A stretch of 64,000 nucleotides of DNA from Fimbriimonadaceae bacterium (GCA_019454105.1 CP075364.1:437362-501361), one strand, 5' to 3'. Counted from the stretch's first letter, positions 19,187 to 24,418 are shown. Translations and numbers: made by a program. The notes: generated by a model from the letters alone, not told the origin.

Positions 19187-19934
19187 CGTCGGCAACACGC
19201 ACACCGTGGTGGGGGTTCACAACGGCTCGAAATGGGCGGCTGTTTGGCGACTTGCCACCTCGTCTCGCACCGAAGACGAGACGGCTGCCCTACTGGCTCA
19301 GCTTGGCTCGATGGTCGGGATCGGCCTGAAAGGCGACCAGTTCGTCGTCGCTTCGGTGGTCCCTTCTCAAGACGAGGTCTGGACGTTGCTCGCCGCGAAG
19401 TGGCTGGGCTGCGACGCCTGGTTCCTTCAGAAAGGCAGCGATGTCGGGTTGGAAGTGACTTATGATCCTCCCCACGCGGTGGGGGCCGACCGGATCGCGA
19501 ACGCCCTTGCCGCCATCAAGCTCTGTGGCCCACCCGTGGTCGTGGTCGACTTTGGCACCGCCACCACGTTCGACGTGGTTGATTCAAAAGGTCGCTATGT
19601 TGGTGGTGCGATCGTTCCAGGTGTGGCAACGTCGGTCGAGGCTCTCTCACGAGGCACCTCGAAGCTTCCGCCGGTTTCCCTTGAGGCCCCGAGCCATGCT
19701 ATTGGCCGCAACACGGTCGAGTCGATCCAGTCCGGAGTCATGTTCGGCTACGCTGGAGCCATCGATTCACTGGCGGCCAAGATCCAGGCCGAACTGGGTG
19801 GCGGCGCCAAGTTCGTTGCGACCGGAGGTCTTGCTGGCCGGTTCCACGGTCTTTGCCAAAGCTTGGACGTGGTTGAGCCTTTGCTCACCCTTGATGGGTT
19901 GCGCGAGGCGGCCCGGATTCGTCGCCGACTTTAA
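19170..19934 (+). CDS. coaX: Type III pantothenate kinase
   Basis: CoaX phosphorylates pantothenate, the first step of coenzyme A synthesis. The 254-aa protein carries the ASKHA-fold phosphate-1 motif WAIDVGNTHTVVGVH at the N-terminus. It also has the PHAVGADRIANALAA segment with catalytic Asp, the phosphate-2 motif VVDFGTATTFDVVD, GGAIVPGV and the adenosine motif FVATGGLAGRF. It overlaps glmM by 17 bases. Its last 50 bases overlap the convergent helix-hairpin-helix gene, an unusually long antisense overlap. Confidence 0.94.
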   Translation: MLWAIDVGNTHTVVGVHNGSKWAAVWRLATSSRTEDETAALLAQLGSMVGIGLKGDQFVVASVVPSQDEVWTLLAAKWLGCDAWFLQKGSDVGLEVTYDPPHAVGADRIANALAAIKLCGPPVVVVDFGTATTFDVVDSKGRYVGGAIVPGVATSVEALSRGTSKLPPVSLEAPSHAIGRNTVESIQSGVMFGYAGAIDSLAAKIQAELGGGAKFVATGGLAGRFHGLCQSLDVVEPLLTLDGLREAARIRRRL

Positions 19935-20808
19935 GTTTGGCCAGTTCCTCGGCCAAAAGGTGTCTGAGTTCGGTCTCAAACCTTTCCGGACGGAGAGCGA
20001 TCCGCTGGCCGAAGTAAGTGAGTCCCATGTTCAGGAGGATTCCGGAGACCTTGGCGCGCCTCGAATATTTCGAGATCTTGCCTGCTACGACCCAATCGGG
20101 TGGCTCGTCTAAGTCTGGCTCGGGAACCAAGTAGGTGACGGCCAGCCTCAACCATCGGTCGACAGGTTGGACGTAGATCCGGTCGATTGGACTCACGTCC
20201 TCTTCGGCATCGAAAAGCCAGACGAGGTCGCGAATGAATGCCGAGGCGCTCTTTGGTCCGACCCCGCGGATATCGACGATTCTTTCATGCTGAGGCTCGA
20301 CCCGGCCCGAGTCCTCCAGGGAGTCGATGATCCAGGTGGCGATGCTTTGTCCGGGATCGTTCCGATGCACTTCTTGGGCCAGTTCGAGCATGCCTTGGAC
20401 GGGCCCTCGGTTGAGGTCCTCTTGCGGCTTTCTGCCGGATTGTTCGCACTTCTCGGCGAACTTTTCCCATAGAAGGACGCCGTCTGGCATGTCAAGGACC
20501 TCGGTGAACGGTCGCTCGCTCACCAGCTGATGAACAGACCGCAGTGCGATGCGACTGAGCTCGTCACGGTCCTTGCCACGTCTTGCGAAAGCATAGTGGC
20601 CGACAAACGCGAGAAGCGACAAGAACGGATCTTCCATGGCCGCGAGCACCGCATCGCGAGTGCTGGAAGAGAGAGTGAGCTCCTTCTTGAACCGCTCCAG
20701 CAGGAACTCCCTTGTGTACTTCTCCCCGAACTCGCCAGCGAGCCGTCTCATCAAGATGACGGCTTTCGGATCGAGGGGGACTTCTTGCGGCCTGTTCCTC
20801 GGAACCAT
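19885..20808 (-). CDS. Helix-hairpin-helix protein, possibly DNA-glycosylase-like
   Basis: This 307-aa protein of unknown function is mostly helical. Residues 178-192 form a clear helix-hairpin-helix (VDIRGVGPKSASAFI). About 20-30 residues later comes SPIDRIYVQPVDRWLRLAV, which resembles the Asp-bearing segment after the hairpin in HhH-GPD DNA glycosylases. No Fe-S cysteine cluster is present. It may bind DNA; glycosylase activity is not shown. The start is 22 bases after the caspase-like gene stop. A large inverted repeat with an embedded promoter fills that gap, so it can be expressed on its own. It overlaps coaX convergently by 50 bases. Confidence 0.75.
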   Translation of the reverse strand: MVPRNRPQEVPLDPKAVILMRRLAGEFGEKYTREFLLERFKKELTLSSSTRDAVLAAMEDPFLSLLAFVGHYAFARRGKDRDELSRIALRSVHQLVSERPFTEVLDMPDGVLLWEKFAEKCEQSGRKPQEDLNRGPVQGMLELAQEVHRNDPGQSIATWIIDSLEDSGRVEPQHERIVDIRGVGPKSASAFIRDLVWLFDAEEDVSPIDRIYVQPVDRWLRLAVTYLVPEPDLDEPPDWVVAGKISKYSRRAKVSGILLNMGLTYFGQRIALRPERFETELRHLLAEELAKLKVGDESGPPRATHQG

Positions 20809-20812
20809 CTTG

Positions 20813-20854
20813 AGTCGCCTTTCTAGGATATTAGAAAGGCGACTTGTCGGTCAA
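20813..20854 (-). promoter_or_regulatory. Promoter embedded in a 13-bp inverted repeat
   Basis: AGTCGCCTTTCTA (20813-20825) and TAGAAAGGCGACT (20832-20844) are perfect inverted repeats around GGATAT. On the minus strand TAATAT (20833-20828) at the centre is a good -10 box. TTGACC (20854-20849) lies 15 bases upstream of it; TATCCT gives an 18-base spacing. The repeat spans the gap before the HhH gene. A repressor site over the promoter fits best. There is no T-run for a terminator. Confidence 0.55.
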
Positions 20855-22186
20855 GTTCTGGAGCACAGGAAGTGTTGGGACTTGTCGGCTTCCCACGCCT
20901 TGAAGCCCGCCGTCTCCGCCCCGCATCTTGTTGAACACCAGCCATCCGAACTCATTGATCGGCACGGTGTTCGTCCGGAGGTCGTGCAGCACAGCGGAGA
21001 GGGCCCGACCATAGAGTCCGTGGATTTTGTCACCCGACATGCTTCCGAGTACCTGACCGTTGGGCATGGTCCCGTGTGACTCGGCGATGGCCCCGACCAA
21101 TAACGATTCCCAGCCGAAATACCGCCCACCGTCCACGGGTCGGCTCGCTTGACTGAAGAAGAAGATCCGTGCCCCTTTCGAGATGAACACTTGGAAAAGC
21201 TCGGACTTGGCCAGCATTCTGCTGGAATCGGTAGCCATCGTAGCGTCGACCCCCACGAAGTAATCTTTGCCATCGATGTTGACTCCCGTGCCACTGAAGA
21301 AGATGAAAAGGGTCGCTTCTTCAGGCATCCTATCGGCCAATGCTTGGGCGGAGACTCGCAGTTGTTCGGCGGTGGCGTTGACCACCAGATCGACGTTCCT
21401 ATCGTCGTAGCCTGCGTTCTGAACCAACGACTCTCGGATGAGCATGGCGTCGTTATTGGCGAACGGCTGGGCTCCGTTGGCCATCGCGCTTTCAGCGTTG
21501 CCGATCACGAGGGCGAACTTTGAGGGAACGATGGGGACCCTTCCGACCAGGGTCGAGACCCCGCTCTCAAGCTCGGGCGCCACGGTGCCGGACGGGGTCG
21601 TGTCCGGCCCCGCCTTGATGTTGCCAGCCGTCGTGGTGCCGGGCCTCCTGACGAACGACGACATGGCGTCGTTGACCTGGGCGGCCTCTTCGGGCGTGAC
21701 GATCTCAGTGTCGACCAGCCAATCCAATGGGGTCGCCTTGAGCGTTTGTTCGAGGGCTCGCTGCTTGTCCGGTTGGTTCAAGAGCCCATAGGACAAGTTG
21801 AGAAAATAGAACGTCGCGGGCGCGTTCTGCTGTTTGGCCAGAAGCGTTTCAAAGCCGCTCACGGCCGCCTGCAGCAGAGTCGTCCGCTCGGCGTCCTGAA
21901 CGGTCTCCGCCAGTTTATAGGCGGCATAGGCCGCCCCGAAGTTCGGTGAGTAGGGCGACCCGCCCCGCCAGCGGATTGGCTCGGTGACCGATCCAGGCAG
22001 CATCGTCGGCTTGGCCTGGTCTTCCGGTCGGCTGGCGGCCGCCTCCATAAAGGCGGCGCGCGCCTTGGCCCAGTCGCGAGACTTCGCGGCGGATAGTCCA
22101 GCCTGGTAGATGTCGGCCCAGGCTTGGCCCAGGCCGACAGAGGCCAGAGTGACGAGAAGTCCGAAGGTAAGAGTCGCGCGTTTCAT
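20831..22186 (-). CDS. Exported caspase-like (C14) protein, catalytically inactive
   Basis: This 451-aa protein has a signal peptide (LTFGLLVTLASVGLGQAWA). A helical TPR-like region follows (about 24-170), then a caspase-fold domain (about 222-445). The fold is clear from FALVIGNAES, FANNDAMLIRESLVQNAGY and LFIFFSGTGVNIDGKDYFVG. The catalytic His normally found in SGHG is Thr300 (SGTG). The normal DxC motif is SQASR, with Ser348 in place of Cys. Both catalytic residues are therefore gone. It is probably a binding or scaffold protein in the periplasm or on the surface. It lies 17 bases after the PorV-like barrel gene on the same strand. A strong HhH-gene promoter region overlaps its stop. Confidence 0.82.
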   Translation of the reverse strand: MKRATLTFGLLVTLASVGLGQAWADIYQAGLSAAKSRDWAKARAAFMEAAASRPEDQAKPTMLPGSVTEPIRWRGGSPYSPNFGAAYAAYKLAETVQDAERTTLLQAAVSGFETLLAKQQNAPATFYFLNLSYGLLNQPDKQRALEQTLKATPLDWLVDTEIVTPEEAAQVNDAMSSFVRRPGTTTAGNIKAGPDTTPSGTVAPELESGVSTLVGRVPIVPSKFALVIGNAESAMANGAQPFANNDAMLIRESLVQNAGYDDRNVDLVVNATAEQLRVSAQALADRMPEEATLFIFFSGTGVNIDGKDYFVGVDATMATDSSRMLAKSELFQVFISKGARIFFFSQASRPVDGGRYFGWESLLVGAIAESHGTMPNGQVLGSMSGDKIHGLYGRALSAVLHDLRTNTVPINEFGWLVFNKMRGGDGGLQGVGSRQVPTLPVLQNLTDKSPF

Positions 22187-22203
22187 CCTTGAAGCCTTGC
22201 CGG

Positions 22204-23337
22204 TCAGTTTCCAACCCTATAGGTGACCGACAGTCCCGTGTCGAGCCCCCCGCCGCCTGCTGCCAGTCCAACGCTCAGGTCAGCCGATAGCCCCCCTGAA
22301 GCCGGTCGGTAGCCGAGGCCGAATGTCATTGTGTTCCTGTTGGCAAACCTGTCGCCACCTTTTGGGACGATGGCGTATCCCGCTCGAACGGGTATCCGAG
22401 TTCCACCCCTGAAGAAGTTGTACTCGAGTCCGAGAGAGCCCACGAGCACGTCGGTGCGCTCAAGGATGGCGCTCTTGTCGGAAGAGAAGTAGTAGTCCAA
22501 CTGCCCGCCATAGACGAAGTAGTCTCGGCTGTCGCCGACTGTGGTGGTCCGAGTCGCATAGCCCAGCGAGGCGCGCCCAGGGATCCGGTTCAGGTAGGGC
22601 GAGGTCTCCCGGTTGTTGCTCAGGCTGATCGGTGACCGAAGACTGATCCCCACAAGCGAGTTGCCCTGGGCGTCGGCTTGGAACTGGGCTCCGACGATGG
22701 CCCCGAATCCGGTCGAGTTTCCGGAATCGTTGAACCGCCGGGTTCCCAAGAAGTTGCTCCCTGAGTCGAAGATCGAGTAGCTGCCTGTGTTCGACAGGTA
22801 CTGGCTAGCCATGATCAGGCCGACGCCATAGTTGGCTCGTCCAGACCGCTTGCCGTATGACAGCGTGAAGAAATCGTGTTGAACCTTGGTGGTGATATCC
22901 ATGTTCTGGATCGAGTTGCCGCCGTCACGCAAGTTGCCTCCAGCATTTTGGACGTCCCTCACGAAACCGCCCATCGTATACGCGATCCCCACGATGCCAT
23001 TGGCGGCAGGCAGGGCCAGTCCGACGTGCGTCAGCGCCCGCGACCCGGCTTTGCGCCTCGTTTCGTAGTTCGGAGAGTCGAACTCGCCGTTCAAGACGTT
23101 CCGTGATTCGGGCAAGTTTCGAAAGGCGACACTGAAAGTGGGGCTTGAAATGTAGGCAAGCCCCGCTGGGTTCGTGTACGACGACAACGTCGTCGAGTCG
23201 GTCGCGTTCGTCGACCCGCCGACGCCCATGGCCCGGCCACCTGCGTCAAGTGCGTTCAAGAGATCCGGCACTTGACCGAATGAGATGGCCGCGGCCATGG
23301 CGGCGAATAATGTGGTGGGTAGCCTCCGTGCTGTCAA
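22204..23337 (-). CDS. PorV-like outer-membrane beta-barrel protein
   Basis: This 377-aa protein has a signal peptide (LPTTLFAAMAAAISFGQ). The N-terminal block resembles PorV/UPF0164 and FadL-type barrels: DAGGRAMGVGGSTNATDS and SYTNPAGLAYI. It continues as many amphipathic strands, ending in GLSVTYRVGN. The start is a TTG at 23337 with GAGGAG seven bases upstream. PorV itself shuttles type IX secretion cargo, and other relatives are transport barrels. No type IX partner genes are visible, so cargo delivery is only a possibility. It is co-directional with the inactive caspase gene (17-base gap) and the Ig-like gene upstream (64-base gap). Confidence 0.78.
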   Translation of the reverse strand: MTARRLPTTLFAAMAAAISFGQVPDLLNALDAGGRAMGVGGSTNATDSTTLSSYTNPAGLAYISSPTFSVAFRNLPESRNVLNGEFDSPNYETRRKAGSRALTHVGLALPAANGIVGIAYTMGGFVRDVQNAGGNLRDGGNSIQNMDITTKVQHDFFTLSYGKRSGRANYGVGLIMASQYLSNTGSYSIFDSGSNFLGTRRFNDSGNSTGFGAIVGAQFQADAQGNSLVGISLRSPISLSNNRETSPYLNRIPGRASLGYATRTTTVGDSRDYFVYGGQLDYYFSSDKSAILERTDVLVGSLGLEYNFFRGGTRIPVRAGYAIVPKGGDRFANRNTMTFGLGYRPASGGLSADLSVGLAAGGGGLDTGLSVTYRVGN

Positions 23338-23401
23338 AATCGACTCCTCGTCCCTTTTACCAAGACGTTCAAGCCATGTTATTCGACTCGGAGTCCGTCC
23401 G

Positions 23402-24418
23402 TCAACGTCCAGCGACTCGGACCCGGACCTCTTGCCTGACTGCGGTGTTGCCAGCCTTGTCTGTCGCGTTGACTCTGATCAGGAACTGCGACGGCAGGGC
23501 TCGACTTGACCGGATCCGACCTGTCCATTGAAGATTGTTCCCCGATGGGTTGGTGCCTCGGCGCACAACGGCCCCTAAGAAGCGCCCGTTCAGGGCGTGG
23601 TACGTGACCACGACTCCGCTCGAGACCACGGCTCCTTGGAACTGGTCAGAAACGTCGACGACGACGATGATGCTGGCACCCGGTTCGATCGGCCGGTTCG
23701 GGTTCGGAGACGAGATGTTCGAGCTGGGTCGCCGTCGGTCCAGAGTGATCGACAGGTTGCGGTTGGTCTTGTTCTTCGCTTTGTCTTCGACGTCGATGCC
23801 GATCCGCTGCTCGCCGTCGTTTCGGACGCCGGTGACGTCCCAGAACACTTGAATGAGGCGAGAGGAGCCTGTGTTGTCCGGAATGTTGGCACCATTGACC
23901 TGAACCTTCCAGTTGTCGACGTTGGGCTCGTCCAATTCGACCCGAATGGGCACTTTGCCCCGGTTGGGACCGGTCTGCAGCCCGCGGACGAAAGCGCCGT
24001 TGAGCGGATTGATCTGCCGGAACTTCGGTTCGACGACGTCGATCGTCAGGTTGTTGACGGCCACCGCCGCGAACTGGGTGGCGCCTTCGAACGGGGTCAC
24101 TCGGAGTCGATAAGTGCCCTCTGGTGTGTTCTCCCCGAAGTTCAGGTCCAGGCTGTCCGTCACCTTGCCGTCGGAGTCTGGTGTGAACCGGCCCTCAGTT
24201 CGGAACAAGGGCGAGGTGGAGGCTCCACGAAAGACTTCCGCCACCAGCCGCAGAGTGAGGTTGGCCCCCGTGTAGGTGAAGTCGATCTTGTTGGTCTTCC
24301 CGAGGAAGTCGTTGGTGCCGGGAGAAGTGACTCGCAGTGTGCCAGCGTACGACGGCGCGGCGGCCATGGCTAGGAGCAAGGCGCAAACGTTCAATCGAAA
24401 ATTCATCTTTGTCAGCAT
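23402..24418 (-). CDS. Exported multi-Ig-like-domain protein
   Basis: This 338-aa protein has a signal peptide (LNVCALLLAMAAAPSYAG) and about three consecutive beta-sandwich domains. The first begins TLRVTSPGTNDFLGKTNKID. The second follows NPLNGAFVRGLQTGP. The third contains SSPNPNRPIEPGASIIVVV and ends NATDKAGNTAVRQEVRVRV, a typical Ig-like edge. AAGGAG stands 11 bases before the ATG at 24418; ATG 24406 is a near alternative. It has no anchor or sorting tail, so it may be released or bound to a partner such as the neighbouring barrel. Adhesion or structural roles are possible but unproven. It is divergent from cheW. Confidence 0.75.
   Translation of the reverse strand: MLTKMNFRLNVCALLLAMAAAPSYAGTLRVTSPGTNDFLGKTNKIDFTYTGANLTLRLVAEVFRGASTSPLFRTEGRFTPDSDGKVTDSLDLNFGENTPEGTYRLRVTPFEGATQFAAVAVNNLTIDVVEPKFRQINPLNGAFVRGLQTGPNRGKVPIRVELDEPNVDNWKVQVNGANIPDNTGSSRLIQVFWDVTGVRNDGEQRIGIDVEDKAKNKTNRNLSITLDRRRPSSNISSPNPNRPIEPGASIIVVVDVSDQFQGAVVSSGVVVTYHALNGRFLGAVVRRGTNPSGNNLQWTGRIRSSRALPSQFLIRVNATDKAGNTAVRQEVRVRVAGR

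Follow-up and report, generated by a model that had tools for sequence, protein, structure and literature searches.

A conserved Armatimonadota operon encoding an exported caspase-fold protein without catalytic dyad, a FadL-superfamily barrel, and an Ig-like protein

Bacterial proteins with a p20-like caspase domain in which the His-Cys dyad is replaced are known as pseudo-orthocaspases and make up 8.6% of bacterial orthocaspases, about 90% of them being alphaproteobacterial or cyanobacterial (PMC6426788). Their typical dyads are Tyr-Ser, Phe-Ser, and Gln-Cys, and additional domains lie C-terminal to p20 (PMC6426788). Orthocaspases as such are set apart from metacaspases by having no p10 domain. 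Barrels of the FadL type, on the other side, are known to serve exported partners, namely PorV for PorU and PorQ for PorZ in the attachment complex PorU-PorV-PorQ-PorZ of the type IX secretion system (T9SS), where a FadL-superfamily barrel holds an exported gingipain-like protein of caspase-like fold (PMC5562754). PorU, a catalytic sortase with a gingipain-like protease domain, is non-covalently anchored to the outer-membrane barrel PorV (PMC5562754). Likewise, BamG, a FadL homolog in the BAM of Bacteroidota, is the attachment platform for the exported BamH and displays a conserved N-terminal extension of about 10–12 residues beyond FadL (PMC12578637).

The locus described here was found in a window of 64,000 nt (the whole stretch of DNA analyzed) from Fimbriimonadaceae bacterium (GCA_019454105.1, CP075364.1:437362-501361), belonging to the 2.74 Mb single-contig genome of an Armatimonadota species whose close relatives with named records are Fimbriimonadaceae and uncultured Armatimonadetes. 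Three minus-strand open reading frames in the order A, B, C fill exactly positions 20831-24418, where the first-pass annotation had placed three same-strand genes, and form a tight operon with intergenic gaps of 64 bp (A-B) and 17 bp (B-C). The first gene, A (23402..24418), encodes an exported protein of 338 aa with a Sec signal peptide without lipobox and about three bacterial Ig-like domains. Gene B (22204..23337) encodes a barrel protein of 377 aa and has a TTG start, which is backed by orthologs beginning at the same place, while the product of gene C (20831..22186) consists of a signal peptide, TPR-like helices (residues c. 22-179), a disordered linker (180-212), and a dead caspase domain (c. 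218-451). By inspection, Sec-type signal peptides were identified on A, B, and C and on their orthologs. Genes for flagella and chemotaxis lie upstream of the operon.

Gene C matched the Pfam family Peptidase_C14 (PF00656) with an E value of 2.4e-10 and 40.9 bits (cut-off 21.4) over residues 223-353. Its AlphaFold model, based on 35 sequences (mean pLDDT 86), showed helices at 22-179 followed by the linker and a caspase domain running to the C-terminus, and residues 218-451 superposed on the MALT1 paracaspase (Z 23.3, 212 residues) as far as the C-terminal part of MALT1. Metacaspase 4 (Z 21.4) and caspases were the next folds, and MALT1 was also matched by sequence at 2e-6 with a profile of the C family. 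By sequence cut-off as well as by fold, C is a PF00656 caspase-fold protein (clan CD), and according to the definition in PMC6426788, i.e., a p20-like domain with the His-Cys dyad replaced, it is a pseudo-orthocaspase.

The replacement of the catalytic residues proposed by the first-pass annotation (His to Thr300, Cys to Ser348) was confirmed in both columns. The codon of Thr300 (21287..21289, minus strand) occupies the column of the C14 catalytic His, and that of Ser348 (21143..21145, minus strand), adjoining the invariant Arg349, the column of the catalytic Cys; where catalytic paralogs read FAGHGV and ADACRAG, C reads FSGTGV and SQASRPV. Among 78 distinct ortholog sequences, 77 of which cover the region, His and Cys at these positions were missing in 77/77, as was the active dyad motif (GHG ... 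DxC), and intact SGHG and DxC motifs were detected in paralogs only. Neither Thr300 nor Ser348 is conserved as such, since column 300 differs between genera (A/V/P/S/T/Q and others, never His) and so does column 348 (N/S/D/H/R/P/A, never Cys), with entropies of 2.67 and 2.27 bits, which place them 50th and 80th of 230 in descending order of variability, so that the residues seen in the window are two among numerous non-catalytic substitutes. Invariant positions of the caspase half are G299, D308, R349, F357, and G358; an invariant His, Cys, or Ser was found nowhere in this half among the 77 orthologs, and thus no shifted active site is suggested. Phe451 (codon 20834-20836) is the last residue of C in all orthologs with a readable end (76/78).

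Compared to described pseudo-orthocaspases (PMC6426788; SyOC of Synechocystis, PMC7889975), C has in common the C14 fold and the replaced dyad, some of them also possess TPRs, and the cyanobacterial ones carry an export signal as C does. It differs from them in carrying its helical domain N-terminally, in having variable dead columns, and in being encoded together with a FadL barrel and an Ig-like protein in a conserved operon. The closest relatives found for its caspase domain were exported caspase-TPR proteins of about 1000 aa from the same class (L120-L126, L137, L139), which share with C an FG-E-G motif after the Cys position. Unlike C, these paralogs have intact GHG and DACR motifs (FAGHGV and ADACRAG in L120), carry the caspase domain first and then the TPRs, and belong to a separate clade. 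An unrooted maximum-likelihood tree placed all C sequences in a single clade (100/100), which a long branch (2.09) separates from every catalytic relative sampled; the natural reading of this tree is that C probably descends from an active exported caspase-like enzyme, having lost the His-Cys dyad. A second caspase-like protein in the genome of the window (L138, C1:737000-744000) is more than 1300 aa long; its GHG and DACK motifs are intact, and a membrane segment lies at its N-terminus.

The predicted structure of B (pLDDT 88) displayed 14 long strands and an N-terminal hatch with GRAMG and NPA motifs. The best structural match was FadL of E. coli (Z 33.4, 326 residues, 17% identity), followed by TodX-type channels (c. 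29), BamG (Z 28), and PorV (Z 26). Residue 25, just after the likely signal peptide, aligned with mature residue 1 of FadL, and the conserved GRA and NPA hatch motifs of FadL/TodX channels, likewise 14-stranded with an N-terminal hatch, are present, while the low identity of 17% and the operon partners, which FadL does not have, distinguish B from these channels. Judged by its model, B is a member of the FadL superfamily and structurally nearer to FadL than to PorV. The earlier description as a PorV/FadL-like barrel thus stands with respect to the superfamily and has to be narrowed with respect to PorV, as the PorV_fam model (NF033709) matched 33/33 B members with the window's B at 31 bits against a cut-off of 90. 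A BamG-type N-terminal extension was absent in B. Omp85/BamA is present in the genome, so that an outer membrane with barrel insertion is to be expected. A second B-like barrel gene was identified in another genome (L146, G039:C151, 2085-3266), with A and C absent from the 6 kb examined. Concerning gene A, the annotation as an exported Ig-domain protein agrees with the signal peptide and with Big_13 Ig-like domains in 23/23 orthologs. In families f3 and f4 (L068, L070), the A frame has more than 700 aa in comparison with about 330, probably due to more Ig repeats.

About 80 genomes, all from one order of the little-studied Armatimonadota class Fimbriimonadia, carry orthologs of C, full-length in families f1, f3, and f5 and partial at a contig end in f4, whereas in family f2 and the rest of the phylum full-length C was absent and only caspase or TPR domain matches were obtained. 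The order A-B-C on one strand was present in 56 of the 59 sampled genomes whose sequence reaches far enough upstream of C, also where flanking genes differ, so the three genes are indeed neighbors in relatives. In G019, C lies elsewhere in the genome without A and B, and in G030 and G155, which belong to one genus, as well as in the named record L115 from outside the sample, it stays at the usual chromosomal slot and directly follows a Cof-type HAD gene, with A-B missing. The corresponding slot, flanked by the HAD gene and the downstream gene, was empty in G007 and G036, so that altogether three states occur, i.e., A-B-C, C alone, or empty; A-B without C at the locus was not seen among the genomes examined. 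As the tree grouped L052 (G030) with L115 (94/93) apart from L049 (G019), there were either two or more losses of A-B or uneven gains of it. The proposal of a three-gene module is therefore borne out as far as adjacency is concerned, and it does not extend to an obligate unit, because C occurs without A-B in four genomes (G019, G030, G155, L115) from at least two lineages. That C outlives the loss of A and B indicates at least one other role or partner. The operon was also found in its usual order in a record titled Methanoregulaceae archaeon (L081, JADZEW010000008.1), a MAG label that is probably wrong.

Several further candidates and links were considered and rejected. A link to flagella and chemotaxis was dismissed because the presence of FliD tracks A-B-C loosely only, G128, G129, and G136 having A-B-C but no FliD, and family f2 and genus g8 having FliD but no A-B-C. 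The downstream gene at 19885-20808 (minus strand) encodes 307 aa without Pfam match and with a helix-hairpin-helix-like stretch RIVDIRGVGPKSASAFIRDLVW, is conserved across the order, and usually lies next to coaX. It was rejected as a fourth member, since its distribution is independent of A-B-C: family f2 and genus g8 possess it although they have no A-B-C, and several genomes with A-B-C do not have it. The Cof-type HAD gene found upstream in relatives was classified as a neighbor only, since the window does not have it and it also persists next to the empty slot. Correlation of gene-tree distances with C was not discriminating as evidence for A-B-C, the unrelated downstream gene (partial r 0.53) being as strong as A (0.44). 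What looked like a fusion of B and C in G006 (858-aa frame; L043 / L082) reflects a scaffold gap, the junction being a run of N (X residues). The N-terminal profile also matched proteins of other families (G245, G097, G114), which are ordinary TPR proteins without A or B, and a match to myxococcal TraC (NF040658, best E 0.008) was attributed to generic TPR similarity.

Selection on C was estimated from five closely related pairs, whose dS in C ranged from 0.31 to 1.25. The dN/dS ratios of the caspase half were 0.008, 0.018, 0.022, 0.030, and 0.014, those of the helical half in the same pairs 0.078, 0.059, 0.080, 0.081, and 0.027, and those of A and B 0.02-0.07, so that, in these pairs, constraint within C is strongest on the dead caspase domain. 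Such strong purifying selection argues for a working pseudo-enzyme and not a decaying gene. Together with the dyad being dead throughout the family, it fits the idea, put forward in the first-pass annotation, that the caspase fold probably serves binding and not cutting.

Based on these results, we consider A-B-C to be an order-specific envelope operon in which B would form an outer-membrane platform, the exported A and C would dock, and C would act as a binding scaffold, a model to which we give about an even chance of being correct. B would be seated in the outer membrane as a FadL-type barrel, A with its Ig-like domains and C with its TPRs and dead caspase would most likely bind to B or to one another, and C would hold protein partners by its TPR half and the caspase surface it has kept, without cleaving them. 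Since FadL-type barrels seat exported partners elsewhere, B would by analogy be the seat and A and C the partners; in this manner, we infer the outer-membrane insertion of B, the contact between A, B, and C, and the scaffold role of C. The model is consistent with the dyad being dead in 77/77 orthologs, the low dN/dS, the order kept in 56/59 genomes, the confident folds, and the presence of Omp85. The tree-distance correlation, which does not single out A-B-C, and the four genomes with C and without A-B speak against it, and the conserved order could mean co-expression only. BamG-BamH resembles the proposed arrangement in that a FadL homolog is the platform for an exported partner, with a Z of 28 between B and BamG, but B does not have the BamG extension, and neither A nor C is a lipoprotein.

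With regard to alternatives, C could be a relic, i.e., a caspase gene without function carried along by its operon neighbors, as the free variation of the catalytic columns (entropy ranks 50 and 80 of 230) might suggest; a dN/dS down to 0.008 in the caspase half, reading frames open throughout, and the retention of C in four genomes without A and B make the probability of this negligible, and in practice the selection test refutes it. The main rival is that the operon holds two units, a barrel with its Ig partner (A-B), e.g., for uptake or display of hydrophobic ligands, and C as a separate pseudo-protease of the periplasm with a regulatory or scaffolding role elsewhere. It is favored by the C-alone genomes, as a slot that is full, occupied by C alone, or empty means that A-B and C can be gained or lost as two independent blocks, and also by B retaining the FadL hatch with NPA and GRA motifs and aligning from FadL residue 1. 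Adjacency on one strand with short junctions in 56/59 genomes and the fact that no genome was seen with A-B but without C at the locus point in the other direction, and we regard this arrangement as possible, though on balance doubtful.

An analog of PorU-PorV, in which B shuttles or anchors surface proteins and C binds them outside the cell, was also weighed. The gingipain-like protease domain of PorU belongs to clan CD, as does C. In favor are furthermore the anchoring of PorU to the PorV barrel (PMC5562754) and the PorV_fam matches in 33/33 B members. However, PorU is a catalytic C25 protein with a sorting CTD, while C lacks the dyad, and B is nearer to FadL than to PorV. Searches of the genome for Peptidase_C25 (PorU) gave no match, as in the controls, Por_Secre_tail CTD had no match at E 0.1, and A did not match the T9SS sorting-domain (CTD-like) model. 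The SprA/Sov translocon was above cut-off in 0/41 family genomes with only matches of about 100 positions, and the control genomes were likewise without match. As no type IX secretion system was found, the locus is not PorU-PorV proper; an analog of it appears unlikely. The surface-assembly or recognition role suggested in the first-pass annotation is at most a candidate reading, no type IX translocon having been found and B being structurally nearer to FadL than to PorV. Proteins of about 850–900 aa with a sub-cut-off match to a 100-position stretch of SprA are encoded in nearly every family genome (L140-L142, G000:C1:2534707-2535021). It also seems rather unlikely, if less so, that the operon represents an undescribed outer-membrane assembly outside Bacteroidota in which a non-catalytic caspase fold docks a FadL-superfamily barrel and an Ig-like protein as an independent, non-enzymatic counterpart of PorU-PorV.

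Pseudo-orthocaspases and FadL-barrel platforms as such are already known. A text search of PMC6426788 revealed no mention of Armatimonadetes, and in the open-access literature we found no report joining Armatimonadetes with bacterial caspases or describing the A-B-C family. What appears to be new is an order-level Armatimonadota family with helices first, no fixed replacement dyad, strong selection, and a conserved operon shared with genes for a FadL barrel and an Ig-like protein.

So far, dead caspases of bacteria have mainly come from Alphaproteobacteria and Cyanobacteria and been linked to photosynthesis, whereas here, in a different phylum, most of an order keeps an exported dead caspase under very strong selection in an operon with an outer-membrane barrel. 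The family offers a clean natural case for studying the use of the caspase fold after cutting was lost, with C-only genomes and genomes without the module for comparison. Besides T9SS and the BAM of Bacteroidota, it would add a third setting of a FadL-type barrel with dedicated exported partners, and it points to a caspase fold that has been put to new use as a binding component of the cell envelope.
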